Shown: positions 7,012 to 24,662 of the stretch, in pieces
How the letters are laid out: every line of letters begins with the position of its first letter
How positions within the stretch are numbered: the first letter of the stretch is position 1
NCBI RefSeq assembly: GCF_007992715.1
Contig: NZ_BKAU01000005.1
Span: 248,001 to 312,000, forward strand
Direction of reading: 5' to 3'
Origin: Chitinophaga cymbidii
GTDB lineage: Bacteria > Bacteroidota > Bacteroidia > Chitinophagales > Chitinophagaceae
Length of the DNA: 64,000 nt
Position numbers and translations under genes: made by a program
Notes under the pieces: model-generated
The model's input: the letters and a program-made list of their open reading frames with translations, nothing else
Databases searched by the model: none
What the model was told of the DNA's origin: nothing

Positions 7012-7037
7012 GTCAGGTGATTGTTTTGGTGTTGGAA

Positions 7038-7067
7038 TCAAGAGTTCCCGGCTACGGGAACTCTTGA
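7038..7067. promoter_or_regulatory. Perfect 13-bp inverted repeat upstream of ppsA
   Basis: TCAAGAGTTCCCG (7038-7050) and CGGGAACTCTTGA (7055-7067) are exact complements around a 4-base loop. The element ends 27 bases before the ppsA ATG on the minus strand and has no T-tract on either side. It is therefore more likely an operator or a leader hairpin than a terminator. Confidence 0.5.
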
Positions 7068-7210
7068 AGGGTGAATGGTTGGTATATGATGGTGATCAAA
7101 AAAACTAATGGTTGGTTTTTGCCGGCAAATATTTTTAAAATATTACCTTACGCCTGAAATATTTTCAATCGAAATTCAAAAATGTTTTTGATATTAAGCG
7201 TGATTCATGG

Positions 7211-7265
7211 AAAAACCGTAAAAATTCCGGTTTTTTGCTAAATGCAGGTTTGTTTTAGCAAAAAA
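7211..7265 (+). promoter_or_regulatory. Two overlapping, mutually exclusive hairpins upstream of the Lrp-type gene
   Basis: Hairpin 1 pairs AAAAACCG (7211-7218) with CGGTTTTT (7228-7235). Hairpin 2 pairs TTTTTTGCTAAA (7231-7242) with TTTAGCAAAAAA (7254-7265), a perfect 12-bp stem. They share bases 7231-7235, so only one can form at full length. Hairpin 1 followed by its T-run is terminator-like. The DNA may instead be an Lrp-type operator. Confidence 0.4.
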
Positions 7266-7326
7266 GCCTGCCCGCTTAACAAAACACCGAATTTCTTACG
7301 GGCTTCGCTCCTTAATATTTTGAACG

Positions 7327-7785
7327 ATGATGGACCTTGATCATACTGACATTGAGATCTTACGGCTGCTGCAAACGAATGCAGAACTGACCAACAAAGA
7401 AATTTCATACAAGCTCCACAAATCCGTCGCCACGATCCACGAGCGCATCAGGCGGCTGAAGGAACAGGGCTACATCAGGCGGGTCGTTGCGATACTGGAC
7501 AGGAAGAAGGTAGACAAAAGTCTGATCGCTTTCAGCCATGTATTGTTGAAGGACCATTCGGCCAATACCCTGAGCTCGTTTGAAAAAGAAGTGGTGAAAT
7601 TCCCCGAGGTGATGGAATGTTTCCAGATGACCGGGACGTTTGATTTTATCCTGCGCATCGCCACTACGGATATGGACGCCTACCATATCTTCTACAGGAA
7701 GCTGGCAACATTGCCCAATATCACCACCGTACAAAGCTTTTTTGTGCTGTCTGAAACAAAAAGTGACACTGCTTATCCAATATAA
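7327..7785 (+). CDS. Lrp/AsnC-family transcriptional regulator
   Basis: A 152-residue protein with an N-terminal helix-turn-helix (residues about 5-60: LTNKEISYKLHKSVATIHER) followed by a RAM-type ligand-binding domain (about 65-145; MECFQMTGTFDFILRIATTD). The length and the order of domains are standard for feast/famine regulators that respond to amino acids. It is divergent from ppsA, so control of gluconeogenic flux or amino-acid carbon is possible but inferred. The upstream region is rich in inverted repeats and AT tracts, as expected for an autoregulated Lrp-type gene. The next gene (sigma factor) starts 101 bases downstream and may belong to a separate unit. Confidence 0.93.
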   Translation: MMDLDHTDIEILRLLQTNAELTNKEISYKLHKSVATIHERIRRLKEQGYIRRVVAILDRKKVDKSLIAFSHVLLKDHSANTLSSFEKEVVKFPEVMECFQMTGTFDFILRIATTDMDAYHIFYRKLATLPNITTVQSFFVLSETKSDTAYPI

Positions 7786-7886
7786 GGCGATGTCCACCAA
7801 TATAAATCATCAGTCAGCATCAGGCTTGGCGAAATGAAATATTAAACATATTTTTCGGGGCATTAATTCACTTCTGCTACCCGCAT

Positions 7887-8480
7887 ATGCCACAAAGTGA
7901 TATTGAAACAGACTGGTTTGCAAGGATTGCAAATGATGATGAACAGGCTTTCAGGCAGGTTTTTGATCACTATTGGCCCCAGGTATATGGTACCAGTTTA
8001 CACCTGACAAAAAATCCGGAGCAGGCAAAGGACCTTTCGCAGGAGATATTTATCAGGCTCTGGGAAAACCGCTCGAAACTCGGGGATGTGAAGACCCCCG
8101 CTTCCTACCTCTACATTTTATCGAAAAACCTGGTGCTGGACCATCTGCGGAAAAAGGTGTTTGATCCGTCTAATATTGACTTCCTGATACAGTATTTCCA
8201 GGTTACCACACAAACGCCGCAGGAAAAGCTGGAGCTGAACGAGCTGAAAGCTGTTATGGAGCAGGCCGTCAACTCCCTGACCGGTAAAGTAAAAGATGTG
8301 TTTGCATTAAGCAGGCAACAGGGACTCACCCACGAACAGATTGCAGCCCGGTTGAGCATTTCAGTAGTATCTTCCAAAACCTATGTGGTGCGTGCCCTGC
8401 AGCAAATCCGGAAATATATGGAAACCCATGCGGGGGATCGCCTCGTTATTGCAGCGTTGGCTGTTTTGTCCCTTCGCTGA
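7887..8480 (+). CDS. FecI-type ECF RNA polymerase sigma factor
   Basis: 197 residues with sigma region 2 (about 25-95; AKDLSQEIFIRLWENRSKL) and region 4 (about 130-185; LTHEQIAARLSISVVSSKTY). It belongs to the Bacteroidota sigma-70 family that pairs with FecR anti-sigma proteins and SusC transporters bearing STN domains. The C-terminus ends in a short hydrophobic tail, VIAALAVLSLR, a feature shared with two other sigma factors in this window. It is followed by fecR and susC on the same strand, so it should direct transcription of the downstream run. A weak promoter-like pair, CTTG-N20-TATTTTTC, lies about 60 bases upstream. Confidence 0.93.
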   Translation: MPQSDIETDWFARIANDDEQAFRQVFDHYWPQVYGTSLHLTKNPEQAKDLSQEIFIRLWENRSKLGDVKTPASYLYILSKNLVLDHLRKKVFDPSNIDFLIQYFQVTTQTPQEKLELNELKAVMEQAVNSLTGKVKDVFALSRQQGLTHEQIAARLSISVVSSKTYVVRALQQIRKYMETHAGDRLVIAALAVLSLR

Positions 8481-8562
8481 GTACTTTATTTGTCAACCGG
8501 AACAAATTTTTTTATTTTCTTGTCTTAGCCCTGCTTTTTTTCCCGTCTTTAAGAAATAGAAT

Positions 8563-9774
8563 ATGGCAAACTCAAGATTTGAAACCTTACTTCAGAAATT
8601 TGTGAAGGATACCATCAGTCCTGCGGAGGTGCATGAACTGGGTGACCTGATGTCGGCAGCCGGTTCCAATGAGGAATTGGATAATTTTCTGGCAAGTGCT
8701 TACGCGGACAGATCTTTAGCCGTGCATGAAGATTTTGACGGAGAAAAGGTCCGGGAGAAAATCCTGGCGCGGTTGCAGTTCGGGGAACCGCAAAGCGCGC
8801 TGCCGCCGGCGAACGATCGCAGGACCTTCAGGTTACGATGGCTGGCAGCGGCTTGCCTGGCCGGGCTTTTGGGTTTGGCGGCCTGGTTCTGGGCGTTACA
8901 GAAAAATACAGGCAGGGAGGGAATTGATCCCCGGCAGGTAGCCATGGTTGCGTCGCCGCAAACGAACAAGGCAATACTGACCCTGGCAGACGGGAGCGAT
9001 GTATACCTGGATAGTGTCAATAACGGCCAGTTGGCCATTCAGGGGCGGGTTAAACTGCTGAAACTGGGCAATGGGCGGATCGCTTATGAATATAGCAGCG
9101 ATACCACAGATATTGTACATACGGCGCGGGCGGGAATGAACACCTTAACCAACCCGCGAGGCAGTGAAGTAATTGAAATGAAGCTGCCCGACAGCACACG
9201 GGTGTGGCTCAACGTAGGATCGTCCCTTAGTTACCCGGTCGCTTTTGAACACAAGGAGAGGACCGTCATATTGAAAGGGGAAGCCTATTTTGAAGTGGCG
9301 CCGGACAAAACCAAACCCTTCCGGGTAAAAATTACTGACAACACAGAGATCGCAGTGCTGGGAACGCACTTCAATGTGAATGCGTACGAGGATGAGCCCG
9401 CTTTGATGGCCACTTTGCTGGAAGGCGCCATTCAGTTTAAAAAGGATAACAAGCGGCAGTTGCTGCAACCCGGCCAGCAGGTGCGGTCAGGTAAGGACGG
9501 GACCATCAGGCTCGTACCTGATGCAGATATTCAGGCCGTAATGGCCTGGAAAAGAGGCTTCTTCCATTTTGACAAAACGGACCTGCCAACGATCATGCGG
9601 CAAATGGAGCGATGGTATGATGTAACCGTGGAATTCCAGGGCAAGGTGACGGACATGAGATTCAGCGGGGAAATTTCAAGAACGCATGACGCTTTCCAGG
9701 TATTAAAAATACTTGAAGCCTCCGGTGCGCATTTCAAAATAGAGGGGAAAAAAATTATCGTACTGCCAGAATAA
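8563..9774 (+). CDS. FecR-family anti-sigma factor
   Basis: 403 residues. A cytoplasmic N-terminal sigma-binding part (about 1-90) is followed by one transmembrane helix (about 92-112, RWLAAACLAGLLGLAAWFW), a periplasmic FecR domain (about 180-285, with LPDSTRVWLNVGSSLSYP and GEAYFEVAPDKTKPF), and a C-terminal DUF4974-type domain (about 325-403, ERWYDVTVEFQGKVTDMRFS). It would hold the sigma factor at the membrane and release it when the STN domain of the neighbouring SusC signals. The 82 bases before it contain T-rich DNA and a GTCTT box (8545-8549) like those before fecR at 44399 and tlpA at 37360. Confidence 0.93.
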   Translation: MANSRFETLLQKFVKDTISPAEVHELGDLMSAAGSNEELDNFLASAYADRSLAVHEDFDGEKVREKILARLQFGEPQSALPPANDRRTFRLRWLAAACLAGLLGLAAWFWALQKNTGREGIDPRQVAMVASPQTNKAILTLADGSDVYLDSVNNGQLAIQGRVKLLKLGNGRIAYEYSSDTTDIVHTARAGMNTLTNPRGSEVIEMKLPDSTRVWLNVGSSLSYPVAFEHKERTVILKGEAYFEVAPDKTKPFRVKITDNTEIAVLGTHFNVNAYEDEPALMATLLEGAIQFKKDNKRQLLQPGQQVRSGKDGTIRLVPDADIQAVMAWKRGFFHFDKTDLPTIMRQMERWYDVTVEFQGKVTDMRFSGEISRTHDAFQVLKILEASGAHFKIEGKKIIVLPE

Positions 9775-9879
9775 AAAAACAACCAGCGACTTAATATTTT
9801 ATCAACCAGAGAGTATCTGTTTCCGCCTGCATACAGCGGACATGCCATCTCCTGCACCAGACATTTCATCGAATTTAAA

Positions 9880-12800
9880 ATGATGCCAATGAGACTGACC
9901 ATCACATTAATTGCTTTATGCCTATTGCTGCAGTTTCCGGCTTTTTCACAGCGGCGGCCGGTCAAAAAGCTCAGCCTGTCCGTAAAAAACGAACGCCTTG
10001 AAAAAGTACTGAAAGAAATAACGAGGCAAACAGGATATACCGTTTTTTATAACGAGTACATGCCCGCCAAAATGAATGACATCAGGGTTACCCTGACGGT
10101 TAAAGAAGCGGACCTTGCCGCCGTGCTGGACCATTGTTTTAAAGACCAGCCCATCCGCTACCAGGTAGTCGGCGAAGTGATCATCATACAGGAAAGGAAA
10201 GACGCGGAAAGCGCACCGGCAAAGCAGACAGCGGAAGGGCAACAGGTTGTTGTAACCGCTATCAGCGGTGTTGTGTTAAACGAACGGAATGTTGGGATAG
10301 ATAATGTAAATGTAATTGTAAAGCGTACCGGCAAAGGGGTAATAACTACTGAAAAAGGAGAGTTTTACCTGGATAATGTCCGCCTCAATGATACGCTGAC
10401 GGTAAGCTGCATTGGCTATAACACTCTTGAAGCAGCTGCATACCGCTCTGACCGCCGGCCGCTCATCATCAACCTCGTTCAGGCCACCAGTACATTGGAT
10501 GAAGTGGTGCTGACGGCATTTGGTAAAACCAGCCGCAGGCTGGCAACCGGCAACATTACAAAAGTTGGCGGTGAGGAACTGGCGCGGCAACCGGTGATGA
10601 ATCCTCTCCTGGCTTTACAGGGGCGGGTACCGGGCATGGTGGTCACGCCTACTACCGGCTATGCCAGCTCTCCCGTCAGCGTGCAGATCAGGGGGCTGAA
10701 CTCATTAAACAAGGGAGTGCCCTCAGACCCGCTGTATATTGTTGATGGCGTGCCCATCAACGTACTGTCCCTGAATGCAGGGGGAGGGCGCACGGACCGG
10801 GTGTCGCCCGGATATGAACAGAGCCCCCACAATCCAAATTCTCTAACCACCGGCGGGCAAAGCCCGTTGTTCAATATCAATCCGCAGGATATTGAAAGTA
10901 TTGAAGTTTTAAAGGACGCCGATGCCACTGCGGTATATGGCGCCCGTGGCGGCAATGGCATCGTTTTAATTACCACCAAAAAAGGCAAGCCGGGCGCTAC
11001 CCGTTTTGAATTGCAGGTAACCCCCGCCTTTTTTACCATGGGCAGAAACGCCAGGTACTATGACATGCTAAACACGCAGCAATACCTGGCGATGCGGAGG
11101 GAAGCGTTCAAGAACGACGGGCTGACCCCCACTTTGGCCACAGCGCCCGATCTGTTGTACTGGGATACTACCGGCTATACCGACTGGCAGCGGAAACTGA
11201 TGGGTGGCATTGCCAGGACCACAGAGGTCGCCGCAGGCGTATCCGGCGGCAGCGATCAGACCAACTTCAGGATCAGCGCCAACTATACACGGACCACCAA
11301 TACAACGGACCTTTCAGGGGCCACGCAACGGGTTACGGTGTCTTCCAACGTCAGCCATGCTACCCTTAACAGGAAGTTTTCCGTTTCGCTGAGCACAAAT
11401 TTTACTTACAGTAATGTAGATGTAACCCGGGGGTTATTCGGCACTTATGCTCCCAACGGCCCCGGAATATATGATGCAAACGGCTCCCTCAACTGGGCTG
11501 AATGGACGGTAGACGGCCTGTTGCCGGGCGCCAGTGTTTATCCTTTCGGGATATACAAGTCGATGCCAAATCCCCAAACCGGAACAGTACTGTTCAGCAG
11601 CCTTTCCCTGAACTATAAAATAATCAATGGCCTGGATTTTAAACTGGTAACAGGCTACAATTTTTCAAATAACAATACCAGGAATTTCATCACCATTGCC
11701 CAGCAATCGCCTTACGGCAACCCTCAGGGAAGGAATTTCTTTTCCACGACCACTATTTCCGGTCTGACCATTTATCCGCAGCTGGATTACCGGGTGCAGA
11801 TCAGCCGTGGCCTGCTGTCCATTAAGCTGGTGGGGCAGGAAGTGATCAAGAACGCAAGTTCAACTGCGATGATCGGGGCCGGGTATACGTCTGATGCCTT
11901 GATCCAGTCTATCAACGGCGCCACAATTACATTACCCGAGATGCAAGCTGCCAAAAGCAAAGATGCCAGTTTTATTGCCAACGTCAATTATGATTGGGAG
12001 GGAAAATACATCGTTAATCTTGTTGGAACGCGCCAGGGGTCTTCAAAATTCGGACCGGGAAAAAAGTATGGTGATTTTGGATCGGTCGGCCTGGCCTGGA
12101 TCGCTTCAGAAGAAAAATGGCTGAACAAGGCGCTCCCGGATTTTATCAGCCTCGTAAAATTCAGGGGCAGTTACGGGATCAAAGGCAGTGATGCCATTTC
12201 AGACTACCAATATCTGGCGCTCTGGCAAATACAGACAGCGGCCAATAATTACAACGGCCAGTCAACGCTGACGCCTTCTGTAAGGCCCAACCAGCGGTAT
12301 GGGTGGGAAAGCCAGACCAACCTGGAGGGCGCATTCAATATCGGGTTCCTGAACAACAGGTTCACGGCAGAGATCGTGCATTACCGCAACCGCGTGTCCA
12401 ATCAGCTTACCAGTGTGCCAACACCGGGTTATATCAACACGCCCGGTATTACCGGCATTGTGGACAATATACCCCTGGTGCTGCAAAATTCAGGTTGGGA
12501 GGGCGTTGTAATCGCCAGGATGATCCAAACGAAACAATTTGATCTGTCGGCCGCCTTCAATATCAGTCAGAATAAGAATATATTGAAATCCTTTCCCGGT
12601 ATCGAAAACACGCCCTATTTCAGCCAATACAAAGTGGGCCAGTCCATAGATCTGGTGTACCTCTATCACTACCTTGGCATAAACCCGCTGACAGGTGAGT
12701 ATGAGTTTGAAGATTACAACGGTGACTGGAAAGTCAGCGATTACAGTACACAGGTACCAACCACCGGAGACGACGACCGGTATGTTATTGTGAACAGGCT

Positions 12801-13269
12801 GCCGGAATTCTTTGGCGGCATGCATGTCGACGGCAGGTACCGGCAACTGAACTTCGGCCTGGGATTTAGTTACAAAAAGCAAATGGGTCAAAACATCCAT
12901 GCCGGCAAAGCTTTTTCAAACGGCACATTTAACGCAAATGTTCCCGTGGAGTTCTATCGTAATCACTGGCAAAAACCAGGCGATATCGCGGATAATCCTG
13001 CGTTTTCAACAAACAGGAATATCGGCAACTTCCGGAATTCGGATCTGGTGTACAGTGACGCTTCCTATATCCGTTTGAATAACGTTTACCTCAGTCATCC
13101 CTTCCCCCAAACCTGGGTAAAGTACGCTGGTTTAAGAGGCGCCATGCTGGCCTGCGAAGCGTCGAACGTGCTGCTGCTGACAAAATACAACGGACTCGAT
13201 CCTGATGTGCATTCCGGACTGCCGCCGGCCGCCATTTATCGTTTAAAACTGACCTGTCAATTCAAATAG
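9880..13269 (+). CDS. SusC/RagA-type TonB-dependent outer-membrane transporter with STN domain
   Basis: 1129 residues. A signal peptide (about 1-25) precedes an STN domain (about 30-105, LEKVLKEITRQTGYTVFYNE), a carboxypeptidase-D-like domain (about 130-205), a plug with the family block DADATAVYGARGGNGIVLIT, and a 22-strand-type beta-barrel. The STN domain is the contact point for FecR, which fits the sigma/FecR pair upstream. SusC forms the channel, energised by TonB, under a SusD lid. The ligand is unknown: no glycoside hydrolase or peptidase is in the operon. An alternative ATG lies 9 bases downstream. SusD follows after 7 bases. Confidence 0.94.
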   Translation: MMPMRLTITLIALCLLLQFPAFSQRRPVKKLSLSVKNERLEKVLKEITRQTGYTVFYNEYMPAKMNDIRVTLTVKEADLAAVLDHCFKDQPIRYQVVGEVIIIQERKDAESAPAKQTAEGQQVVVTAISGVVLNERNVGIDNVNVIVKRTGKGVITTEKGEFYLDNVRLNDTLTVSCIGYNTLEAAAYRSDRRPLIINLVQATSTLDEVVLTAFGKTSRRLATGNITKVGGEELARQPVMNPLLALQGRVPGMVVTPTTGYASSPVSVQIRGLNSLNKGVPSDPLYIVDGVPINVLSLNAGGGRTDRVSPGYEQSPHNPNSLTTGGQSPLFNINPQDIESIEVLKDADATAVYGARGGNGIVLITTKKGKPGATRFELQVTPAFFTMGRNARYYDMLNTQQYLAMRREAFKNDGLTPTLATAPDLLYWDTTGYTDWQRKLMGGIARTTEVAAGVSGGSDQTNFRISANYTRTTNTTDLSGATQRVTVSSNVSHATLNRKFSVSLSTNFTYSNVDVTRGLFGTYAPNGPGIYDANGSLNWAEWTVDGLLPGASVYPFGIYKSMPNPQTGTVLFSSLSLNYKIINGLDFKLVTGYNFSNNNTRNFITIAQQSPYGNPQGRNFFSTTTISGLTIYPQLDYRVQISRGLLSIKLVGQEVIKNASSTAMIGAGYTSDALIQSINGATITLPEMQAAKSKDASFIANVNYDWEGKYIVNLVGTRQGSSKFGPGKKYGDFGSVGLAWIASEEKWLNKALPDFISLVKFRGSYGIKGSDAISDYQYLALWQIQTAANNYNGQSTLTPSVRPNQRYGWESQTNLEGAFNIGFLNNRFTAEIVHYRNRVSNQLTSVPTPGYINTPGITGIVDNIPLVLQNSGWEGVVIARMIQTKQFDLSAAFNISQNKNILKSFPGIENTPYFSQYKVGQSIDLVYLYHYLGINPLTGEYEFEDYNGDWKVSDYSTQVPTTGDDDRYVIVNRLPEFFGGMHVDGRYRQLNFGLGFSYKKQMGQNIHAGKAFSNGTFNANVPVEFYRNHWQKPGDIADNPAFSTNRNIGNFRNSDLVYSDASYIRLNNVYLSHPFPQTWVKYAGLRGAMLACEASNVLLLTKYNGLDPDVHSGLPPAAIYRLKLTCQFK

Positions 13270-13276
13270 AAAAGCC

Positions 13277-14770
13277 ATGAGATGTTCTTGCATATATCTG
13301 GGAAAGTCAACAGCCGGTCTTGTTCTGCTGTTAGTTCTGGCGGGCTGCCTGTTCAGCACGGCATCCTGTAAAAAGCTGGTGGATATTTCAGACCCCGTGG
13401 ATAAAATAACCTCCGGGACCGCCTTCAGTTCTGACGAGCTGGCCGGAATGGCCATGAATGGTGTTTACACCACTTTGATGACCAGCGGCTTTGTGAAACG
13501 CCCTATTACCCTGCATGCGTCGCTTTCATCCGATGAGCTGTTACGGGTGAATGCTATTGCATTTGGCCCTGAGGCCCTCCTGGCAGCTAACCGCCTGAGC
13601 CTGGAAGGTGTTGCCCCGGATGCCGGTTTTATTACAGACGCCACGTGGAATGCCGGGTATGCGGTGATCTATGCCGCCAATGCGGTGATCGAGGGCATTG
13701 CCGCATCCACCTCAGGCGACCTGCACGAGCCCGTTCGCAAGGTGCTCACGGCCGAAGCAAAATGCATCCGCGCCCTCTGCTATTTTTATCTCGTTAATTT
13801 TTACGGGGACGTTCCAATCGTGTCAACTACCGAATATAGCGACGCAGCCCTGATTGCACGCAGCAGCACGCAGCAGGTTTACGAGTTCATCATCGCCGAC
13901 CTGAAAGAGGCAGAGGCGGCGCTGCCGGGAGACTATGCCGCGTCCGGAGGGGAAAGGATCAGGGTCAACAAATGGGCCGCGGCGGGCCTGCTGGCTAAAG
14001 CATACCTGTTTAACGGAAATTATCCGGAGGCAGTTGCCGCGGCCGGCAGGGTGATCGGTAATTCCGGATTGTATGGCCTGGAACGGAACCTCGATAGCGT
14101 TTTTCTGAAAAACAGCCGGGAGGCTATCTTTCAGTTTAAGCAAAATACAAGTGATGTTAGCTTGGGAAACGCAACAGACGATGGGCTTGCTTTGCTTCCC
14201 TTCAGTCTTACCAGCCCCGCTATCGGATATTGCCTGTCAAATGAGCTGTTGGGCGCATTTGATCCTTCCGACAAACGGAGGGACCGCTGGGTAGACAGCA
14301 TCGTTGTTGCTGCCGGTTCCCGAACGGATACGTTCTTCTACGTTGCGAAGTATAAAACGGGGCAATACAACAGGGTGCGGAATGCGGTTCCCACAGAATA
14401 TTATATGCTGCTCCGCCTCGCTGAAATGTACCTGGTAAGGGCGGATGCCAATGCAAGGGCCAGTGCAGCGCAGCCGGCAGCAGCCGTGGAGGATTTAAAT
14501 ACCATCAGGGCCAGGGCCGGCCTCCCCGCATTGCCTTCTTCCTTATCCGGAGAAGCGCTGCTTGCCGCCGTGGCGCGCGAATGGCAAACCGAATTTTTTT
14601 GTGAAAAGGGGCAGCGCTGGTTCAATTTGAAACGCACCGGCAAGGCCAGGAGCGTACTTTCGGCAATACCTGCAAAGCAGCCATGGGCTGGGGATGAGCA
14701 ATTGCTGTATCCCATCCCTCCCAAAGATATCAACTTTAATCCCAGGTTAAAACAGAACCCGGGGTATTGA
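13277..14770 (+). CDS. SusD/RagB-type surface lipoprotein
   Basis: 497 residues. A long N-terminal signal ends in a lipobox, STASC, with the lipidated Cys near residue 32. The helical TPR-rich SusD fold is indicated by AKCIRALCYFYLVNFYGDVP (about 155-175), RVNKWAAAGLLAKAYLF (about 225-245) and the closing block WQTEFFCEKGQRWFNLKRTG (about 435-455) before LYPIPPKDINFNPRLKQNPGY at the C-terminus. It would form the ligand-binding lid over the SusC at 9880, which ends 7 bases upstream. Nothing in the sequence names the ligand. Confidence 0.93.
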   Translation: MRCSCIYLGKSTAGLVLLLVLAGCLFSTASCKKLVDISDPVDKITSGTAFSSDELAGMAMNGVYTTLMTSGFVKRPITLHASLSSDELLRVNAIAFGPEALLAANRLSLEGVAPDAGFITDATWNAGYAVIYAANAVIEGIAASTSGDLHEPVRKVLTAEAKCIRALCYFYLVNFYGDVPIVSTTEYSDAALIARSSTQQVYEFIIADLKEAEAALPGDYAASGGERIRVNKWAAAGLLAKAYLFNGNYPEAVAAAGRVIGNSGLYGLERNLDSVFLKNSREAIFQFKQNTSDVSLGNATDDGLALLPFSLTSPAIGYCLSNELLGAFDPSDKRRDRWVDSIVVAAGSRTDTFFYVAKYKTGQYNRVRNAVPTEYYMLLRLAEMYLVRADANARASAAQPAAAVEDLNTIRARAGLPALPSSLSGEALLAAVAREWQTEFFCEKGQRWFNLKRTGKARSVLSAIPAKQPWAGDEQLLYPIPPKDINFNPRLKQNPGY

Positions 14771-14830
14771 TCAGATCAACACTGCCATGTCCGGAAACCG
14801 GAACTGACCACATCGTAAATAAAATTCGAC

Positions 14831-15598
14831 ATGAGAAAATTGCTTTGTTTTTTTATAGTACTGACCGGTATCATAGGGTTTGCTTCCTGCACAAGAGAGC
14901 AGCTCAAGCCGGATGGCACTGCCTCCCTCACGATTGTTAACGCGCTCATAGATACCGGTTACCAGTCGCTCATGCTAACGTCCAGCGAATTGGCCGGACC
15001 GCCACAAACAGCTGTCCCGCCTACGCTCTCCAAGGCAGTATCCGGTGGGGGATACGAATACGGGTTTTTGTCCGGCAAAAGAACTGTTTACCTCTACGCC
15101 GTCCGGAATGACAAATTGGTAAGCGGTCCGCCATTGATCAACCTGGACATTGAATTTCCCAGCGGATATATCGGCAGCCTGTTTATTGCAGGTACATTAG
15201 ATAAACCGGATACGCTGCTGGTGAAAGATCAGCCGCTTTATTTCCCGCCTGCGGATAGCGGTATGGGCCTGCGCTTCGTCAACCTCGCGCAGGGCGGCCT
15301 TCCCGTTAGTGTGAATATAAAAGGGCAGGCCGATGGCGCCGAGGTTAATCACCTGCCTTTTAAAGGCATCACGGCATTTAAAAGATATGCGGCCAACGCC
15401 GCTACCGGCAGTTATGTATTTGAATTCAGGAACAGCGGCACCGGCGAGTTGCTGACCAGCTTTACCATCAGTAATGTAAACAATCCCGGTACGGCATCTC
15501 CCAATCTCTGGCGCTACCGGAATTTCACCCTGGTATTGTGCGGTGAGGCGGGTTCGTCCCTGACGCCACTTTCCGCGGTCATCGTAAAAAACCACTAA
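14831..15598 (+). CDS. Exported lipoprotein, DUF4397-like
   Basis: 255 residues with a lipoprotein signal (IIGFASC, Cys near residue 20). The rest is predicted to be beta-rich. The segment MGLRFVNLAQGGLPVSVNIK and the following strands resemble the DUF4397 immunoglobulin-like repeat often found in Bacteroidota surface lipoproteins. That family assignment is from pattern memory only. It sits between SusD (60 bases upstream) and a GldA-like ATPase (16 bases downstream), all same strand, so it is probably a surface accessory protein of the SusC/SusD complex. The biochemical role is unknown. Confidence 0.6.
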   Translation: MRKLLCFFIVLTGIIGFASCTREQLKPDGTASLTIVNALIDTGYQSLMLTSSELAGPPQTAVPPTLSKAVSGGGYEYGFLSGKRTVYLYAVRNDKLVSGPPLINLDIEFPSGYIGSLFIAGTLDKPDTLLVKDQPLYFPPADSGMGLRFVNLAQGGLPVSVNIKGQADGAEVNHLPFKGITAFKRYAANAATGSYVFEFRNSGTGELLTSFTISNVNNPGTASPNLWRYRNFTLVLCGEAGSSLTPLSAVIVKNH

Positions 15599-15614
15599 TG
15601 CAAATCAATCACAC

Positions 15615-16535
15615 ATGGCATCTATTTTAAAAACAGCGCACCTTTCTCACCGGTATGGCTCTTCCTGGGCTATCCGTGATATCAATATCGAAATTGAACG
15701 ATCCGGGATCATTGGTTTGCTGGGCTCCAACGGGGCCGGTAAATCCACTACCATGAATATTATTTGTGGGGTGCTGAACCAGACAGAGGGACAGGTATGG
15801 CTCAATGGCATTGATCTGGAAAAAGATCCCGTTGAAGCCAAAAAACATATCGGCTTCCTGCCGCAAACCCCGCCTTTGTACCCGGACTTCACCATCGACG
15901 AATATCTTTCCTATTCCGCGCAGTTGCGGCTGATCAGCAAAGACAAAATTAAAAAGGCGGTGGAAGAAGTGAAGGAACGCTGCGGGATTGCCGCTTTAAG
16001 CTCCCGGCTGATCCGCAATCTGTCAGGCGGGTACAAGCAGCGGGTAGGCATTGCTCAGGCGCTGATCCATAAACCCAGCCTGCTGGTGCTGGATGAGCCC
16101 ACCAACGGTCTCGATCCCAACCAGCTGATAGAAGCCCGGAAACTGATCAAGGAAATTTCCAGGGACCATGCCGTGCTGCTTTCTTCCCATATACTGTCTG
16201 AAATTCAGCTGCTCTGCAACAGCATTACAATGATTGAAAGTGGAAGGATCGTGTTTGCGGATACGATGGATGCTTTTGATAACTACCTGCAACCGCAAAG
16301 CATATTGATGAGAATGGAAAATCCGCCCGTTAAATCGCAGTTGCTGGATATAGCCGGGGTGAAAAGAGTGGAGTTTCTGACAAGCAAGCAGGTGCGCGTG
16401 TATGTGGAAGGTGATGCCAACGAAATTGCCGAGGAACTGAGCAAAACAGGCGCACTGAGCGGCTGGCGGCTCAGGGAGATCAGCTTTGACAAAGGGCTCC
16501 TCGACGATACATTTAAACAACTTTCAAAAAAATAG
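15615..16535 (+). CDS. ABC transporter ATP-binding protein, GldA-like
   Basis: 306 residues. Walker A is GSNGAGKST (37-45), the signature is LSGGYKQRVGIAQAL, and Walker B/D-loop is LLVLDEPTNGLDP. A C-terminal extension of about 80 residues (NPPVKSQLLDIAGVKRVEFL onward) is typical of ABC-2 exporter ATPases such as GldA. GldA with GldFG is linked to gliding in Flavobacterium, but many Bacteroidota carry non-gliding copies. Here the gene lies inside a SusC/SusD operon directly before a GldFG-like fusion, so a role in moving a substrate linked to that uptake system is inferred. No other gliding genes are in the window. Confidence 0.9.
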   Translation: MASILKTAHLSHRYGSSWAIRDINIEIERSGIIGLLGSNGAGKSTTMNIICGVLNQTEGQVWLNGIDLEKDPVEAKKHIGFLPQTPPLYPDFTIDEYLSYSAQLRLISKDKIKKAVEEVKERCGIAALSSRLIRNLSGGYKQRVGIAQALIHKPSLLVLDEPTNGLDPNQLIEARKLIKEISRDHAVLLSSHILSEIQLLCNSITMIESGRIVFADTMDAFDNYLQPQSILMRMENPPVKSQLLDIAGVKRVEFLTSKQVRVYVEGDANEIAEELSKTGALSGWRLREISFDKGLLDDTFKQLSKK

Positions 16536-16601
16536 GCCGGCGTCCGCCGCAACAAACACCGGAACGGATCTATCAAATTCATCACCAACAATTCATAGTT
16601 C

Positions 16602-18956
16602 ATGATCTTTAAAATTGCCAAAGCGGAGCTTCGTAATCTTTTCTATTCTCCTGTAGCCTGGTTCCTGTTGATCATATTCTTTATACAATGCGCCATTTTT
16701 TTCACCAACCCTTTGTACAATTCCGCTAATGGCCAGGATATACTATTGGAGAATACACCGTGGTTCATTGACTACGGTCCGGGCAAGTCATTTACAGGCG
16801 CCTTGTTTTCAGCAAATGGACTATTCAGGAATATAGCGAACAACCTCTATCTTTTTGTGCCGCTGCTGACCATGGGGCTGTTCAGCCGGGAGTTAAACAA
16901 CGGCAGCATCAAGTTATTGTATTCTTCCCCAATTACAACCAACCAGATCGTTTTTGGCAAATACCTGGCCGTAGCGATCTTCAACTGCATGTTAATTGTT
17001 ATTGTCGGCGTTTTTATGTTGACAGGTGTTTTTGTGATCAGGTCAGCTGAATGGGGCGTGCTGCTGTCGGCAGTACTGGGTTTTTACCTGCTTGTTTCCG
17101 CCTATGCGGCGATCGGTCTTTTTATGAGCACGCTCAGCAGCTACCAGCTGGTGTCTGCCATCAGCACATTTTTAATTGTTTTTGTGCTGACCCGGATCGG
17201 CTCGCTCTGGCAGCAATATGATTTCGTCCGCGACCTTACCTGGTTTCTTTCCTTGCAGGACCGGACGGACAGGATGACACAGGGCCTGCTGCCCACGAAG
17301 CACGTGATCTATTTCATGGTGATCATTTGCATGTTTCTTGGTTTTACCCTCATCAAACTGAACAGTACCCGCAAACACAAGCCCTGGTTTGTCCGGGCCA
17401 TGCAATATACCACCGTACTGGTCATAGCGCTGGTTATCGGCTATGTCAGCTCCAAGCCAAGATTTACGGCCTACCTGGATGCCACTTCCGGAGATTTCCA
17501 TACGGTAGGGCCACGCACACAGGAGATACTGAAAAGCATGGATAAAGGCCCGCTCGAAGTAACGCTCTATACCAATGTACTCGGCACCAACGCTGCACAT
17601 GGATTACCCAGAGCGCGAAATGCATACCTGGGACTCCTTTGGGAAAAATACCAGCGCTTTAAACCGGATATGAATTTCAGGTATGTCAACTATTATGATC
17701 ATGACAGCGCGATAATGGGGAACAGTGTGTATGCCATGTTTCCCGGTAAAACGCTTGAACAGATCGCCGAAAAAGCAGCACAGGCATATCAGCTCGACCC
17801 GGATGATTTTGTATCGCCCGGGGATGTCAGGAAGGAGGTTGACCTGCGGCCGGAGAACCTGAAGCTGGTGATGCAATTGAAATACAACGGCCGAACGGAA
17901 TTTTTGCGGACGTTCAGGACGCCGGAGATCTGGCCCAAAGAGATCAATGTCAATGCCGCACTAAAGCGGCTGATGCAGGATACGATCCCCAGGGTAGTAT
18001 TTGCCGCGGGAAACTGGGAACGTTCTCCTTTCAAAACCGGGCAACGGGAGTATTCGTTGCTTTTTACAGGGAAAAGCGAGAACTATTCCCTTATCAATAT
18101 CGGGTTTGACGTAGATACCATTGTTTTAGACAGCGCCGCCATCCCGGAAAACACCTCTACGCTTGTACTTGCCGATCCCAAAAGCCAGTTAAGCGAAAAA
18201 GCGGTTGCCGGTATAAAGGAATATATCGATAAAGGCGGCAACATGATGATCCTGGGTGAACCGGGTAAACAGCACATACTCAACCCGGTTTTGCAACAGC
18301 TCGGTGTACAACTGCTGCCAGGGACCATTGTGCAGCCCACTTATGATGAGATGCCGCATATTTTTTACCCGGTATACGCCGATTCCGCGCTGGATATCGC
18401 GGAGGAAACAGCATTTCTGAACAGGAAGTGGAAATTGAAAAGAAAAGAACTAAAGCCCACCACGCCGGATGATCCATTGAGAATGTCCATATCCGGGGCA
18501 ACCGGGCTTGTCATTGCCGGGAATGGGCCGTTTAAAGCGGAAACGTTGCTGAAAGCGGCCGATACGGCGGCGGCCTGGGTAAAAATGGGGCCGGTGGTCA
18601 CGGATTCCGCAGCGCCGGTATTCAGCCCCCGGGCGGGTGATATCAAAGGCAACTTCCCGGTGGCCACCATGCTCACCCGTAATATAAATGGCAAACAACA
18701 ACGGATCATCGTATCCAGCGATGCGGATTGGGCCAGCAACCTCTATAAGGGTTCTACGCCATATGGACAGGCTTTCTTCAGCTGGCTGGACAATAACAGA
18801 TTTCCGATTTACGATCCTTTCAAAGCTCACCAGGATAACCTGTTGCTCATCACACGAAAAGGAGCTGCCACATTAAAAGTGTTATACATATGGGTATTAC
18901 CGGCATTGCTATTGATCGGCGCAGCTATTTTGCTGATCCGCCGCAAAAGAAAATAA
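16602..18956 (+). CDS. GldF-GldG-like fused ABC-2 permease and auxiliary periplasmic protein
   Basis: 784 residues. The N-terminal 260 residues are an ABC-2 permease with about six transmembrane helices (FYSPVAWFLLIIFFIQCAIF first; motif LYSSPITTNQIVFGKYLA). A further helix (about 267-287) begins the GldG-like part, a large periplasmic region (about 290-750; PLEVTLYTNVLG, GNMMILGEPGK, IIVSSDADWASN). It ends with a C-terminal membrane anchor and RRKRK. GldF and GldG are separate proteins in Flavobacterium; the fused form is common in other Bacteroidota. The GldA-like ATPase lies 66 bases upstream and a MutS-like gene 33 bases downstream. The transported substrate is unknown. Confidence 0.88.
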   Translation: MIFKIAKAELRNLFYSPVAWFLLIIFFIQCAIFFTNPLYNSANGQDILLENTPWFIDYGPGKSFTGALFSANGLFRNIANNLYLFVPLLTMGLFSRELNNGSIKLLYSSPITTNQIVFGKYLAVAIFNCMLIVIVGVFMLTGVFVIRSAEWGVLLSAVLGFYLLVSAYAAIGLFMSTLSSYQLVSAISTFLIVFVLTRIGSLWQQYDFVRDLTWFLSLQDRTDRMTQGLLPTKHVIYFMVIICMFLGFTLIKLNSTRKHKPWFVRAMQYTTVLVIALVIGYVSSKPRFTAYLDATSGDFHTVGPRTQEILKSMDKGPLEVTLYTNVLGTNAAHGLPRARNAYLGLLWEKYQRFKPDMNFRYVNYYDHDSAIMGNSVYAMFPGKTLEQIAEKAAQAYQLDPDDFVSPGDVRKEVDLRPENLKLVMQLKYNGRTEFLRTFRTPEIWPKEINVNAALKRLMQDTIPRVVFAAGNWERSPFKTGQREYSLLFTGKSENYSLINIGFDVDTIVLDSAAIPENTSTLVLADPKSQLSEKAVAGIKEYIDKGGNMMILGEPGKQHILNPVLQQLGVQLLPGTIVQPTYDEMPHIFYPVYADSALDIAEETAFLNRKWKLKRKELKPTTPDDPLRMSISGATGLVIAGNGPFKAETLLKAADTAAAWVKMGPVVTDSAAPVFSPRAGDIKGNFPVATMLTRNINGKQQRIIVSSDADWASNLYKGSTPYGQAFFSWLDNNRFPIYDPFKAHQDNLLLITRKGAATLKVLYIWVLPALLLIGAAILLIRRKRK

Positions 18957-18989
18957 CCAATCATCTTTCCTGAATTAAACAGCATATAC

Positions 18990-20297
18990 ATGACCGCCAG
19001 ATTATTGGAGACAGACGAACAGACGCTGGACGACCTGGGCATTTTTGGAAGGCAGGAGGCCGAAGGCATCTTCGGTATTTATAACCACACGCATTCCCGC
19101 GGCGGCGAAAAATTGCTGCGGGCGTGGTTTAATGCACCCCTTGCAGACAAGGAAGGGATCAATAACCGCCTGAACACGATAGAACAGTTCGCGTTGAGAA
19201 AAACAGGCTTTCCTGTAAACGGCAGTGTGCTGGACAGAATAGAGAAATACCTGGTCCGTACGCCCGATGATGATAACGATGGCCTCCCTCAAAATACGCT
19301 GAGCGAAAAAGAAACCGTTGACGGTGTTGTGGCTACCATTGAGTTGCTGCAGAGCATGAAGGCATTTTCTGATACTGCGGATGCCACCAGCCTTCCAGCC
19401 TACAGCGCGGAAAGGAATGAACTGGCCGGTCTTTTAGCGGATGCTGCTTTGGCGCCGGCGTTAAAGGAAAAACTGAAAGGCAAACTTTCTTATTCAGCCG
19501 TCACCGCATACGATCAGCTGTTCAGGAAAAGGGTGCATACACAGCTGGAGCAATTGTTACACTATGTGTATACGCTGGATGTATACCTGTCTGTCGGCCG
19601 GCTTGCTGAAAAGAACGGCTACGTTTACCCCCGTGTTACAGAACCGGGAACAGCAACACTGCTCATAAAAGGCGTCGTTCATCCCGCGCTGAAAAATGCG
19701 GTGGGGAACGACATAGCGATGCGCCCCGGCCATAACGTTATTTTTCTGACAGGCGCCAACATGGCGGGAAAATCCACCCTGCTGCGTTCCATCAGTGTAG
19801 CGGTGTACCTGGCCCATATGGGTTTCCCCCTTGCCGCCAAAGCGATGGAGTTTTCGGTCATGGACGGGATGTACACCACCGTGAACCTGCCGGATAACCT
19901 GGGTATCGGCGCCAGTCATTTTTATATGGAAGTGCTGCGCGCAAAAAAGATCGCAGTGGAGCTGAGCCAAAGGAAATCCCTTTTCGTCATTTTTGACGAG
20001 CTTTTCAGGGGCACGAATGTAAAAGACGCGCATGAAGCGACTGTAGCCATTACCAGCGCCTTTGCAAAGAATCACAGCAGTCTTTTTATTATATCCTCAC
20101 ATATTGTGGAGGCAGGTGAAGAATTAAAGCAGGAGCCTGCCATTCGTTTTCAATATATGCCCACGGAGATGAATGGTAATGTTCCTGAATATCCCTATAC
20201 ACTGCGGCAGGGCATTACCGATGACCGGCACGGCATGGTGATCATACGGAATGAAGGGATATTGGACATATTGAAGGAAGGGAAGAAGGTGCGGTAA
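18990..20297 (+). CDS. Short MutS-like ATPase, first of a tandem pair
   Basis: 435 residues. The N-terminal part (about 1-210) matches the MutS core/lever region (TLDDLGIFG, GGEKLLRAWFNAPLADKEGI). The C-terminal part is a MutS ABC-type ATPase with Walker A GANMAGKST (about 254-262), LGIGASHFYMEVLRAKK, Walker B LFVIFDELFRGTN (about 331-343) and the switch histidine in SSHIVEAG. The mismatch-reading domain I and connector domain II of MutS are missing, and no Smr nuclease domain (as in MutS2) is present. Ordinary mismatch repair is therefore unlikely. It begins 33 bases after the GldFG fusion and 24 bases before its paralogue. Function unknown. Confidence 0.88.
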   Translation: MTARLLETDEQTLDDLGIFGRQEAEGIFGIYNHTHSRGGEKLLRAWFNAPLADKEGINNRLNTIEQFALRKTGFPVNGSVLDRIEKYLVRTPDDDNDGLPQNTLSEKETVDGVVATIELLQSMKAFSDTADATSLPAYSAERNELAGLLADAALAPALKEKLKGKLSYSAVTAYDQLFRKRVHTQLEQLLHYVYTLDVYLSVGRLAEKNGYVYPRVTEPGTATLLIKGVVHPALKNAVGNDIAMRPGHNVIFLTGANMAGKSTLLRSISVAVYLAHMGFPLAAKAMEFSVMDGMYTTVNLPDNLGIGASHFYMEVLRAKKIAVELSQRKSLFVIFDELFRGTNVKDAHEATVAITSAFAKNHSSLFIISSHIVEAGEELKQEPAIRFQYMPTEMNGNVPEYPYTLRQGITDDRHGMVIIRNEGILDILKEGKKVR

Positions 20298-20321
20298 GTC
20301 AAATACTTTAAAGATGATGAT

Positions 20322-21644
20322 ATGAATTTCAGTATAGATAAGCAAACGCTTGATGAGCTGAACCTGATGGGCAAGTTTCGCCAGGGTTCAATCTATCATA
20401 TGTTTAACCAGGTAAAAACAGGCGGAGGCGAACAATTGCTTGACCAGATGTTTCGCAACCCGTTGCAGGATGTGGCCGCTATCAATAACCGCAGCAAAGT
20501 ATTCCGTTTTTTCCAGGACGCAGGGTGTGAATTTCCCTTTGATGTACAGCACGTCAGCCAGATGCGGGAATACCTGGATGAAAAAAGCGGCAAGAGCGAA
20601 ATACTGGTACTGGCGGATACGGTGATAAAAAAGTGTTTGTCCGCGCTGACGCACGATGAACGCTATAAAAGAAAAATACAGGGCCTGCAGGCGACCATCA
20701 TCACGCTTGCCAGATGTCATTCGTTCCTGGAAACACTGGCGCCGGAAGAGCCTTACCGCTCCCGGATCAATACCATCAAAACAATACTGGCTGACAGGCG
20801 CATAGAAAAGTTGAGAAATATCGATATCTATACCACGCTGCCGGTCCGTTTGCTCGCCCATTACGATCATCTTTTAAAAAGCAGGCTGAACAAAGAGCTG
20901 GAAGCTGTTTTATCCTTTATATATGAGGTGGACGTATATATCGCGGTAGGCGGCGTGGCGCAAAGCAGGGGCCTGCGCTATGCCATTGCACATCCCCCGG
21001 AGGATAATTTTCTTTCGGCCACCGGGTTGTTCCATCCCGGTGTGCCTCATGCTGTTGGCAATGATATATACATGCATAAAGATACCAATGTGCTGTTTCT
21101 TACGGGCGCTAATATGGCCGGTAAGTCAACATTGATGAAGTCATTGGGCATTGGCTTGTACCTGGCGCACATGGGCTTCCCGGTGGCGGCTGAAAGCTTC
21201 GGTTTTTCGATCAGGGAAGGTCTGTATTCTTCCATTAATGTGGCTGATAACATTGGTTTGGGATACAGTCATTTTTATGCGGAGGTGGTGCGCGTAAAAC
21301 AGGCCGCATTGGCAGCGGCTGCCGGAAAAAGGTTGCTGCTGATGTTCGACGAGCTATTCAAGGGCACCAACGTAAAAGATGCTTATGACGGTACATTGTC
21401 GGTGACCGAAGGCTTTGCTGATTACAGGGAATGCATGTTTGTGATCTCTACACATATTATCGAAGTAGGGGCGCCGCTGAAGAAAAATAATAATATCCGT
21501 TTTGCGTATATGCCCACGGTTATGGATGGGCCTCATCCGCGGTATACTTATCAAATGAAGGAAGGCATAACAGAAGACCGGCAGGGGATGATGATCATCC
21601 GGCAGGAAGGCATACTTGAGCTTTTAAACAGCGCGCAGGCATAA
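20322..21644 (+). CDS. Short MutS-like ATPase, second of a tandem pair
   Basis: 440 residues, the same architecture as the gene before it. A MutS-core-like N-terminus (TLDELNLMGKFRQGSIYHMF, GGGEQLLDQMFRNPLQDVAA) precedes an ATPase with Walker A GANMAGKST (about 261-269), LGYSHFYAEVVRVKQ, Walker B LLLMFDELFKGTN and STHIIEVG. Both copies end with a matching GITxDRxGMxIIRxEGIL block, so they arose by duplication but have diverged well beyond the ATPase motifs. Two retained paralogues suggest a heterodimer, as in eukaryotic MutS complexes; this is inference. It is the last gene of the same-strand run that begins with the sigma factor at 7887. Confidence 0.88.
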   Translation: MNFSIDKQTLDELNLMGKFRQGSIYHMFNQVKTGGGEQLLDQMFRNPLQDVAAINNRSKVFRFFQDAGCEFPFDVQHVSQMREYLDEKSGKSEILVLADTVIKKCLSALTHDERYKRKIQGLQATIITLARCHSFLETLAPEEPYRSRINTIKTILADRRIEKLRNIDIYTTLPVRLLAHYDHLLKSRLNKELEAVLSFIYEVDVYIAVGGVAQSRGLRYAIAHPPEDNFLSATGLFHPGVPHAVGNDIYMHKDTNVLFLTGANMAGKSTLMKSLGIGLYLAHMGFPVAAESFGFSIREGLYSSINVADNIGLGYSHFYAEVVRVKQAALAAAAGKRLLLMFDELFKGTNVKDAYDGTLSVTEGFADYRECMFVISTHIIEVGAPLKKNNNIRFAYMPTVMDGPHPRYTYQMKEGITEDRQGMMIIRQEGILELLNSAQA

Positions 21645-24650: not shown

Positions 24651-24662
24651 TTGACATCATCT

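Follow-up and report, generated by a model that had tools for sequence, protein, structure and literature searches.

A recurrent SusC/SusD operon with a GldA/GldFG-like ABC unit and a pair of MutS-like ATPases in Chitinophaga cymbidii

Gene content of the operon

The window analysed here is a stretch of 64,000 nucleotides from Chitinophaga cymbidii (assembly GCF_007992715.1, contig NZ_BKAU01000005.1, positions 248,001 to 312,000), and the element in question is a run of nine genes at positions 7887-21644 of this window, in which a SusC/SusD (SusCD) receptor and its regulators are followed by an ATP-binding cassette (ABC) transporter of the ABC-2 type and two MutS-like ATPases. All nine open reading frames (ORFs) are collinear on the + strand. 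From the sigma factor gene to the second MutS-like gene the intergenic gaps measure 82, 105, 7, 60, 16, 66, 33 and 24 bp, so that the preliminary description of the run, nine same-strand genes with most gaps under 110 bases, is borne out (range 7-105 bp). Families were assigned by Pfam/NCBIfam scans of the translated ORFs.

The run starts with an extracytoplasmic function (ECF) sigma factor of the FecI/TIGR02985-like type (7887..8480, 197 amino acids (aa)), which carries Sigma70_r2 and Sigma70_r4_2 and scores 116 bits with TIGR02985, under the cut-off of 126.4. It is followed by a FecR anti-sigma factor or sigma regulator (8563..9774, 403 aa; FecR and FecR_C). The SusC TonB-dependent receptor (9880..13269, 1129 aa) matches Plug and, with 566 bits, TIGR04056, and its N-terminal STN domain barely passes the cut-off (28.9 versus 28.4 bits). 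Among the 50 available relatives STN was detected at E<=0.01 in all 41 full-length SusC proteins scanned, a scan that leaves out the tandem-GldFG variant described below, whose SusC genes are truncated because the loci end within them. Since all 41 carry the domain, these SusC receptors appear to be of the signalling kind. ECF sigma factor, FecR and STN-bearing receptor, the components of FecI/FecR signalling, thus lie together in one locus.

The SusD lipoprotein lid (13277..14770, 497 aa) shows SusD-like_3, SusD_RagB and a lipobox-like N terminus and completes the SusC and SusD pair of a utilisation locus; a carbohydrate-active enzyme was not found among the nine genes in the family scan. The next gene encodes a lipoprotein of 255 aa (14831..15598) with the lipobox-like motif FASC. 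It has no family match at E<=1e-3 in Pfam/NCBIfam. Its relatives in the loci L028 (E=3.9e-8, above the cut-off) and L009 (4.6e-4, below the cut-off) match DUF4397, and by way of them the earlier name "DUF4397-like" is fair. The transporter genes follow with a GldA-like ABC ATPase (15615..16535, 306 aa; ABC_tran) and a GldF-GldG-like fusion (GldFG; 16602..18956, 784 aa), which joins a GldF-like ABC2_membrane_2 and a GldG-like ABC_transp_aux in one chain. The last two genes, MutS-like 1 (mut1; 18990..20297, 435 aa) and MutS-like 2 (mut2; 20322..21644, 440 aa), match MutS_III and MutS_V only.

The following gene starts at 21895, 250 bp past mut2. Because this gap contains a TATATTTG element, which we take to be the Bacteroidota-type -7 consensus, the operon probably ends at 21644. 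A scan for promoters and terminators remained near background (22 promoter-like sites versus 20.2 expected; 26 terminator-like sites versus 21.1).

Recurrence of the gene set

Four MutS-like pairs were found in the C. cymbidii genome (6.63 Mb, 18 contigs). Each of them sits in a run of same-strand genes together with FecR, SusC, SusD, GldA and GldFG, and three of these runs include a sigma gene. In three copies, namely this operon, L009 and L011, the order is FecR-SusC-SusD-lipoprotein-GldA-GldFG-mut1-mut2, where L011 has a same-strand 310-aa lipoprotein-like ORF between SusD and GldA. The sigma gene stands directly before FecR here and in L011; in L009 the nearest one is located 1.9 kb upstream, past opposite-strand ORFs. 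The fourth copy (L094) is permuted on one strand to mut1-mut2-sigma-FecR-SusC-SusD-DUF4843-PKD_2-GldA-GldFG and keeps all core members. Altogether the pair is present in four of the six SusCD-ABC operons of the genome. As the genome holds no fewer than 150 SusD genes (the scan scored 150 of 165 candidates) versus 6 GldFG fusions, a single MutS pair beside one SusCD would mean little. It is the recurrence of the full gene set, and not mere SusCD adjacency, that argues against chance.

A profile from the four mut1 proteins of this genome gave at least 549 relatives in named genomes, and the best 80 loci were studied. They come from 46 assemblies (counted by hand), with 13 loci from one Pseudoflavitalea genome, and their genera include Chitinophaga, Pseudoflavitalea, Niastella, Niabella, Mucilaginibacter, Pedobacter and Sphingobacterium. 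Locus genes were called with profiles grown from this operon and the own-genome copies (E<1e-5). The counts refer to the 74 loci with at least 9 kb of upstream DNA, and a run was defined as same strand with gaps under 400 bp. In the run before mut1, gldFG is found in 71 of the 74 loci and gldA in 70, and gldFG directly adjoins mut1 on its upstream side in 70/74. The genes susC, susD, gldA and gldFG all share one same-strand run in 67 of the 74 loci, which agrees with the earlier view that receptor and ABC-2 transporter belong together. FecR (45 loci) and sigma (21 loci) are both undercounted, because they often lie beyond the locus end. Three loci (L080, L081 and L086) have no ABC gene upstream of mut1 and carry sigma-FecR-SusC-SusD downstream, like the permuted own-genome copy; the DNA examined there ends before any downstream gldA-gldFG position. 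Both members of the pair were seen in 78 of the 80 loci, and the remaining two (L016, L053) stop at a contig edge. Several loci (L019, L021, L028, L030, L035 and others, at about 5200-9990) carry tandem GldFG fusions with the sigma gene moved near gldA, some with a DUF2059 gene in between; judged by gene order this is a second, distinct architecture.

In a reciprocal test 147 same-family genomes, drawn evenly from a larger group, were searched with a fusion threshold of E<=1e-40. The pair occurs in 15 of these genomes and the fusion in 16, namely the same 15 and G138, and neither occurs in 131 (Fisher p=1.4e-19, without phylogenetic correction). Thirty-five of the 47 fusions lie within 15 kb of a pair gene on the same strand. 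From the other side, 33 of 42 second-paralogue genes (42 places at >=520 bits, picked by hand) are near a fusion; the 9 misses all belong to G002 and G102, in which only 7/43 and 7/21 fusion candidates, respectively, were scored. In an order sample the pair was present in 7 of 198 genomes, all of the same family, and in a phylum sample in 3 of 395, one of them outside the family. A match at E<=1e-60, mostly single and of roughly 250-310 bits, is found in 129 of the 147 family genomes, and this lone 440-aa MutS-like gene is taken as a different, core gene. The combination of MutS pair, GldA/GldFG and SusCD therefore recurs well beyond this genome, with 67 of 74 loci and the same 15 of 147 genomes, and is not the single-genome curiosity that the preliminary description had named as the outcome fatal to its reading. 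The recurrent ABC-2 and MutS genes beside SusCD also support its view that the locus departs from the standard utilisation type.

Pairwise identities average 57% in mut1 and likewise in mut2 (79 rows each). The averages are 67% in GldA, 48% in GldFG (both 74 rows) and 43% in FecR (49 rows), and 32% in both SusC (51 rows) and SusD (72 rows). Over 50 common loci the distances correlate with 0.93 for mut1-mut2, 0.93 for gldA-gldFG and 0.96 for susC-susD. The corresponding values between pair and ABC unit are 0.79 (mut1-gldFG) and 0.70 (mut2-gldFG), and those involving the receptor are 0.83 (mut1-susC), 0.84 (mut2-susC), 0.76 (mut1-susD), 0.70 (gldFG-susC) and 0.61 (gldFG-susD). Species history is constant within the one Pseudoflavitalea genome, where 9 to 11 of the 13 copies could be compared. 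There the correlations are 0.92 for mut1-mut2, 0.75 for gldA-gldFG, 0.69 for mut2-gldFG and 0.62 for mut1-gldFG, and the SusD link vanishes (mut1-susD -0.02, gldFG-susD -0.16). Because the SusD correlations are lost within one genome while the ABC and MutS ones hold, receptors seem to be exchanged between copies under a kept ABC and MutS engine.

The same gene order could in principle arise as a neighbourhood without function, if a SusCD-rich genome juxtaposed unrelated genes and duplication spread the block. SusD is indeed very abundant and loci are duplicated within genomes, up to the 13 just mentioned. This explanation is nevertheless hardly credible, as the permuted order keeps the core, presence and absence of pair and fusion agree across the 147 genomes, SusD seems to be swapped while ABC and MutS genes are kept, and mut1 and mut2 occur as a natural fusion (see below).

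The ABC-2 unit and the MutS-like pair

The closest family of the GldA-like ATPase is GldA, with 251 bits for the model TIGR03522, below its cut-off of 402.6. The fusion likewise stays under the curated cut-offs (GldF 83 versus 288.5 bits, GldG 24.5 versus 389.85). In the six SusCD-ABC operons the GldA-like ATPases reach 245-276 bits with the GldA model, versus 426 bits for a separate canonical GldA of this genome. Canonical GldG (551 bits) and GldF (308 bits) are likewise encoded outside these operons, and all three canonical proteins pass their cut-offs. These sub-cut-off scores and the separate canonical genes rule out the gliding transporter.

The AlphaFold2 (AF2) model of GldFG (predicted local distance difference test (pLDDT) score 90.2) resembles the N-terminal (GIFT) domain of IFT52 with E=2e-7. 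Weak fold matches were obtained for NosDFY chains (E=0.004 at best) and PmtCD (E=0.069), and by sequence no PDB relative was found at E<=0.01. The model suggests that the ABC-2 unit bears a large, GIFT-like extracytoplasmic arm and a C-terminal helix; from its likeness to GldG the arm is presumably situated in the periplasm. Anti-phage defence was considered and rejected, since PADLOC gave no match for the MutS pair or GldFG. The GldA-like ATPase matches the ATPase models of several PADLOC systems (best mad3, 93 bits), which we read as the common ABC ATPase core.

A transporter with such a large extracytoplasmic domain, stably coupled to genes for SusD and other lipoproteins, might together with the MutS pair serve envelope assembly. 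As a dedicated factor for assembly or extraction it would either help to bring the SusCD/lipoprotein complex to its place on the outer membrane or supply it with energy. We regard this as rather improbable, because nearly all SusCD systems of the genome manage without an ABC unit (at least 150 SusD genes versus 6 GldFG fusions).

The MutS fold is familiar from ATPases of DNA repair, and for the pair the preliminary description had offered an action on nucleic acid or, alternatively, a role as remodelling ATPase. In the Pfam scan neither protein matches MutS_I, MutS_II or MutS_IV, and neither matches the SMR domain. Walker A, Walker B and the conserved His are kept in 78/78 mut1 and 78/78 mut2 proteins. 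The pair therefore has the domain V ATPase of mismatch-repair MutS with intact motifs and lacks its domains I and IV. The AF2 model of mut1 (pLDDT 92.6) shows the MutS/MSH fold, with 7oto as best PDB match (TMq 0.74). MutS carries a beta-sheet clamp in the region that matches residues 107-209 of mut1, and in the model these residues form helices only, with zero beta strands. Thus mut1 is predicted to be without clamp, a reading from secondary structure and the missing Pfam match, not from superposition. Predicted isoelectric points (pI) of the pair are near-neutral (means 7.6 and 7.0). A full-length MutS (1025 bits) is encoded elsewhere in the genome, and mismatch repair is ruled out by this separate gene and the domain content of the pair. 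With the MutS2 model the two proteins score 66 and 58 bits versus a cut-off of 400, and with the KamC reactivase model 99 and 90 bits versus 300, so far under the cut-off that KamC was rejected as well. The best NCBIfam model for the pair is MutS, below cut-off, and such genes may therefore be mislabelled as mismatch repair in annotation.

If the cassette imported or sensed a ligand containing nucleic acid, the MutS pair could act on its DNA or RNA. The MutS fold with intact ATPase motifs would suit this. One inserted gene, at L019:3882-4337, matches mainly DUF2059 and, below the cut-off, also UvsY (E=0.009). Apart from the UvsY match, no nuclease, helicase or competence family appears among the neighbour families listed, which for the genes right after mut2 are 25 of 41, and the pair is without mismatch, connector and MutS_IV domains and the predicted beta clamp, with a near-neutral pI. 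Such a role is very unlikely, and the earlier suggestion of a MutS-fold ATPase acting on nucleic acid is not supported. Its alternative, the remodelling ATPase, we infer to be the better fit.

In a tree of 56 sequences a single branch (100/100) splits all 27 mut1 from all 27 mut2, from which it is drawn that the pair would stem from one old duplication. Both genes are fused in L098:3790-6375 (-) to one chain of 861 aa, followed by a thioredoxin-like gene, and in 35 of 78 pairs the two reading frames share 4 bp. Since the two sets are split by a strong branch and are naturally fused in L098, the pair likely forms a heterodimer in the cytosol, both of whose ATP sites would be active. An open frame of 898 aa at G102:C2:1432045 may be a second mut1-mut2 fusion. 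C. cymbidii also possesses two lone MutS-like genes. One, at L012:8961-10289 (+), encodes 442 aa, is about 30% identical to mut1 and resembles the single lower-scoring match of most family genomes. The other, at L013:9915-11186 (-), encodes 423 aa and lies near a SusC-like gene, with no GldA/GldFG-like ORF in 18 kb.

Neighbouring genes and possible ligand

Forty-one loci have a non-cassette same-strand gene within 400 bp after mut2, encoding 19 S41 peptidases, 5 thioredoxin-like proteins, 4 M16 and 2 trypsin-like peptidases. Among 11 second genes downstream that were scanned, 3 are M16. In total 59 downstream proteins were collected, and 52 were scanned plus one more, a major facilitator superfamily (MFS) transporter. 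Genes inserted upstream (34 of 36 scanned) include 5 thioredoxin-like, 5 PKD_2, 4 DUF4843 and 4 DUF2059 genes and one each of met-zincin, M1 and S41 peptidases. As control, 40 regions behind other SusD genes of this genome were chosen among the higher-placed entries of the SusD list, omitting the cassettes of this genome and some others; L127 was lost as no SusD ORF was called, and 29 of the 39 usable regions gave 43 genes, up to two per locus. S41 is present in at most 1 of these 43 genes, since it is not among the 25 families listed for the control. Thioredoxin-like genes make up 9/43 versus 5/41 behind mut2 and were dropped as a mark of the cassette, not being enriched. The S41 cases are mostly close relatives from Chitinophaga, and the own-genome copy L011 is followed by a GH43 enzyme with lectin domains, the operon in G138 by an arabinofuranosidase. 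Peptides are a reasonable first guess at the ligand for many copies, not for all. The earlier statement that no degradative enzyme is present holds for the nine genes of this operon; in related loci S41 and M16 peptidases do follow, and behind the own-genome copy L011 the GH43 enzyme.

Peptidases in this position would also fit toxic-peptide or antibiotic sensing with immunity, in which SusCD-STN senses a foreign and often peptidic compound, peptidases and thioredoxin-like proteins from the neighbourhood inactivate it, GldA/GldFG expels it from the membrane in the way of LanFEG or PmtCD, and the MutS pair helps to repair or remodel a cytosolic target. The GldA-like ATPase matches models for lantibiotic protection (179 bits) and phenol-soluble modulin (PSM) export (112 bits), both below their cut-offs and below its GldA score, and GldFG has the one weak PmtCD fold match. 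A further argument comes from the S41, M16 and trypsin-type peptidases right after mut2 (19, 4 and 2 of 41, with S41 in at most 1 of 43 controls). However, the S41 cases are mostly those from close Chitinophaga relatives, thioredoxin-like genes turn up at least as often behind other SusD genes of this genome as behind mut2, the GH43 enzyme and the arabinofuranosidase look like nutrition, and SusCD pairs are importers. We therefore consider immunity unlikely. RiPP (ribosomally synthesised and post-translationally modified peptide) or lantibiotic export was also rejected; a dedicated search for precursor genes was not made. PMC12636315 mentions SusC/SusD near MNIO clusters, and in its main text the terms MutS, ABC transporter, TonB and Gld are absent.

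Further neighbours were observed as well. Behind the operon itself lies a gene for a putative secreted protein of 717 aa (21895-24048, +) with C-terminal HEAT repeats, whose N-terminal half contains HGHGD and DNCLTGSFH, by eye resembling a His-Cys dyad of the caspase/C25 type; a Pfam peptidase match is absent. It is followed at 24651-27464 (+) by a 937-aa outer-membrane receptor-like protein with a CarboxypepD_reg-like start and a plug-like stretch, also judged by eye. The pair-less operon L095 holds DsbD_N and AhpC/TSA-type thiol proteins (L095:13881-14348 and 9128-10597).

Proposed role and comparison with known systems

By its gene order the cassette is a recurrent operon-like block of an STN-type SusC with SusD, usually its own FecR and sigma factor, an ABC-2 unit and usually the MutS pair. 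Our preferred interpretation, to which we give a probability of about 45%, is a ligand-induced transport or signalling cassette in which the SusCD receptor can be exchanged, the ABC-2 unit is conserved and a MutS-fold ATPase carries out remodelling in the cytosol. FecA/FecR/FecI is an established cell-surface signalling scheme and serves as model for the signalling half, in which a ligand on SusCD would act via the STN domain on FecR and the sigma factor, and so switch the operon on. NosDFY and peptide exporters serve as models for the ABC-2 unit, which would spend ATP from the cytosol either on moving the ligand, or a partner in the periplasm or envelope, or on exerting mechanical force on it. 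The MutS-like heterodimer in the cytosol would, with its two ATP sites, be a remodelling or gating ATPase for the cassette, as suggested by fold, pairing, missing DNA-recognition domains and context; candidate targets are the ABC unit, the carrier of the imported ligand or a regulator, not mismatched DNA. If the receptor half is swapped and the ABC and MutS half is kept, different copies would serve different ligands with one engine. A more specific proposal is put forward only tentatively, namely a new class of envelope machine. In it a heterodimeric clamp-less MutS-fold ATPase, as a motor recruited to membrane transport or transport signalling, would join a GldA/GldFG-type ABC-2 unit in driving or gating how ligands are handled behind exchangeable SusCD receptors.

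Several observations weigh against this interpretation. Two own-genome SusCD-GldA-GldFG operons (L095, L096) and the one in G138 are without the pair, which the ABC unit evidently does not need in order to work. The 12 remaining fusions of the 47 are not within 15 kb of a pair, 3 of these being at contig ends. The 80 loci are not independent, as they are the best of at least 549 and, coming from 46 assemblies, include 13 of one genome. Across the 50 loci the correlation of the pair with SusC (0.83-0.84) is no lower than that with GldFG (0.70-0.79), so that the idea of a pair tracking ABC only is not borne out; these correlations do not mark the ABC unit as its partner, fit awkwardly with the receptor swapping seen within one genome and speak against a strong form of it, the number of copies compared there being small (9 loci). 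With two long outgroup rows, the lone MutS-like genes of this genome, the root is drawn inside mut2 (98/91), and two equal sister families are thereby unsupported; mut1 may have arisen from within mut2, although the tree program rates the placement of such long rows as unsure. Finally, a contact of the pair with the ABC unit, or remodelling as such, is only what we infer from sequence and gene context. The earlier claim that the MutS pair belongs with receptor and ABC unit has thus to be narrowed. The pair is common and recurrent, and by gene content it is a frequent add-on to SusCD-ABC operons rather than an obligatory part, because two of the six own-genome operons are without it, and the existence of such operons suggests that it modulates the cassette rather than forms its core.

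No published description of SusCD together with GldA/GldFG and MutS was found in a search of the open-licence literature. The gene set is real and conserved, and as far as this literature shows the unit is undescribed. If the interpretation is true, a paired MutS-like family that lacks the mismatch domain and accompanies an outer-membrane receptor and an ABC transporter would extend the fold to transport or transport signalling. The cassette offers a handle on the work of GldA/GldFG-type transporters outside gliding, and the 861-aa fusion of L098 is a good construct for structure work. With up to 13 loci in a single genome, it is sometimes many-copied in Chitinophaga-like bacteria and relatives.

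With FecA/FecR/FecI signalling the cassette shares the order and domains of sigma factor, FecR and STN receptor, whereas its receptor is a SusC with a SusD lid, and ABC-2 and MutS-like genes are added. SusC, SusD and a further lipoprotein gene are common to SusC/SusD utilisation loci (polysaccharide utilisation loci (PULs), RagAB-type), but here the operon is without degradative enzyme and has a dedicated ABC-2 unit and the MutS pair. The GldA/GldF/GldG gliding transporter provides the best NCBIfam models for the ABC chains, which differ in having GldF and GldG in one chain and in scoring below all three cut-offs. NosDFY and PmtCD are ABC-2 transporters with weak fold matches to the GldFG model (E 0.004 to 0.07 only), and the extracytoplasmic domain resembles IFT52 instead. 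Domains III and V and the ATPase fold are shared with MutS/MSH mismatch-repair proteins; unlike these, the pair consists of two paralogues without domain I, II and IV matches, and a canonical MutS is encoded elsewhere. With MutS2 and KamC, MutS-fold ATPases outside mismatch repair, the pair shares a core that lacks the mismatch domain, and it is set apart from them by the missing SMR match, scores below both cut-offs and another gene context. MutS2 is described in PMC10897456 as splitting ribosomes, which sets a precedent for a MutS-fold machine whose substrate is a large complex and not a mismatch. Each part of the cassette thus has known relatives, and the whole can be seen as a SusCD/cell-surface-signalling locus with an added ABC and MutS engine.

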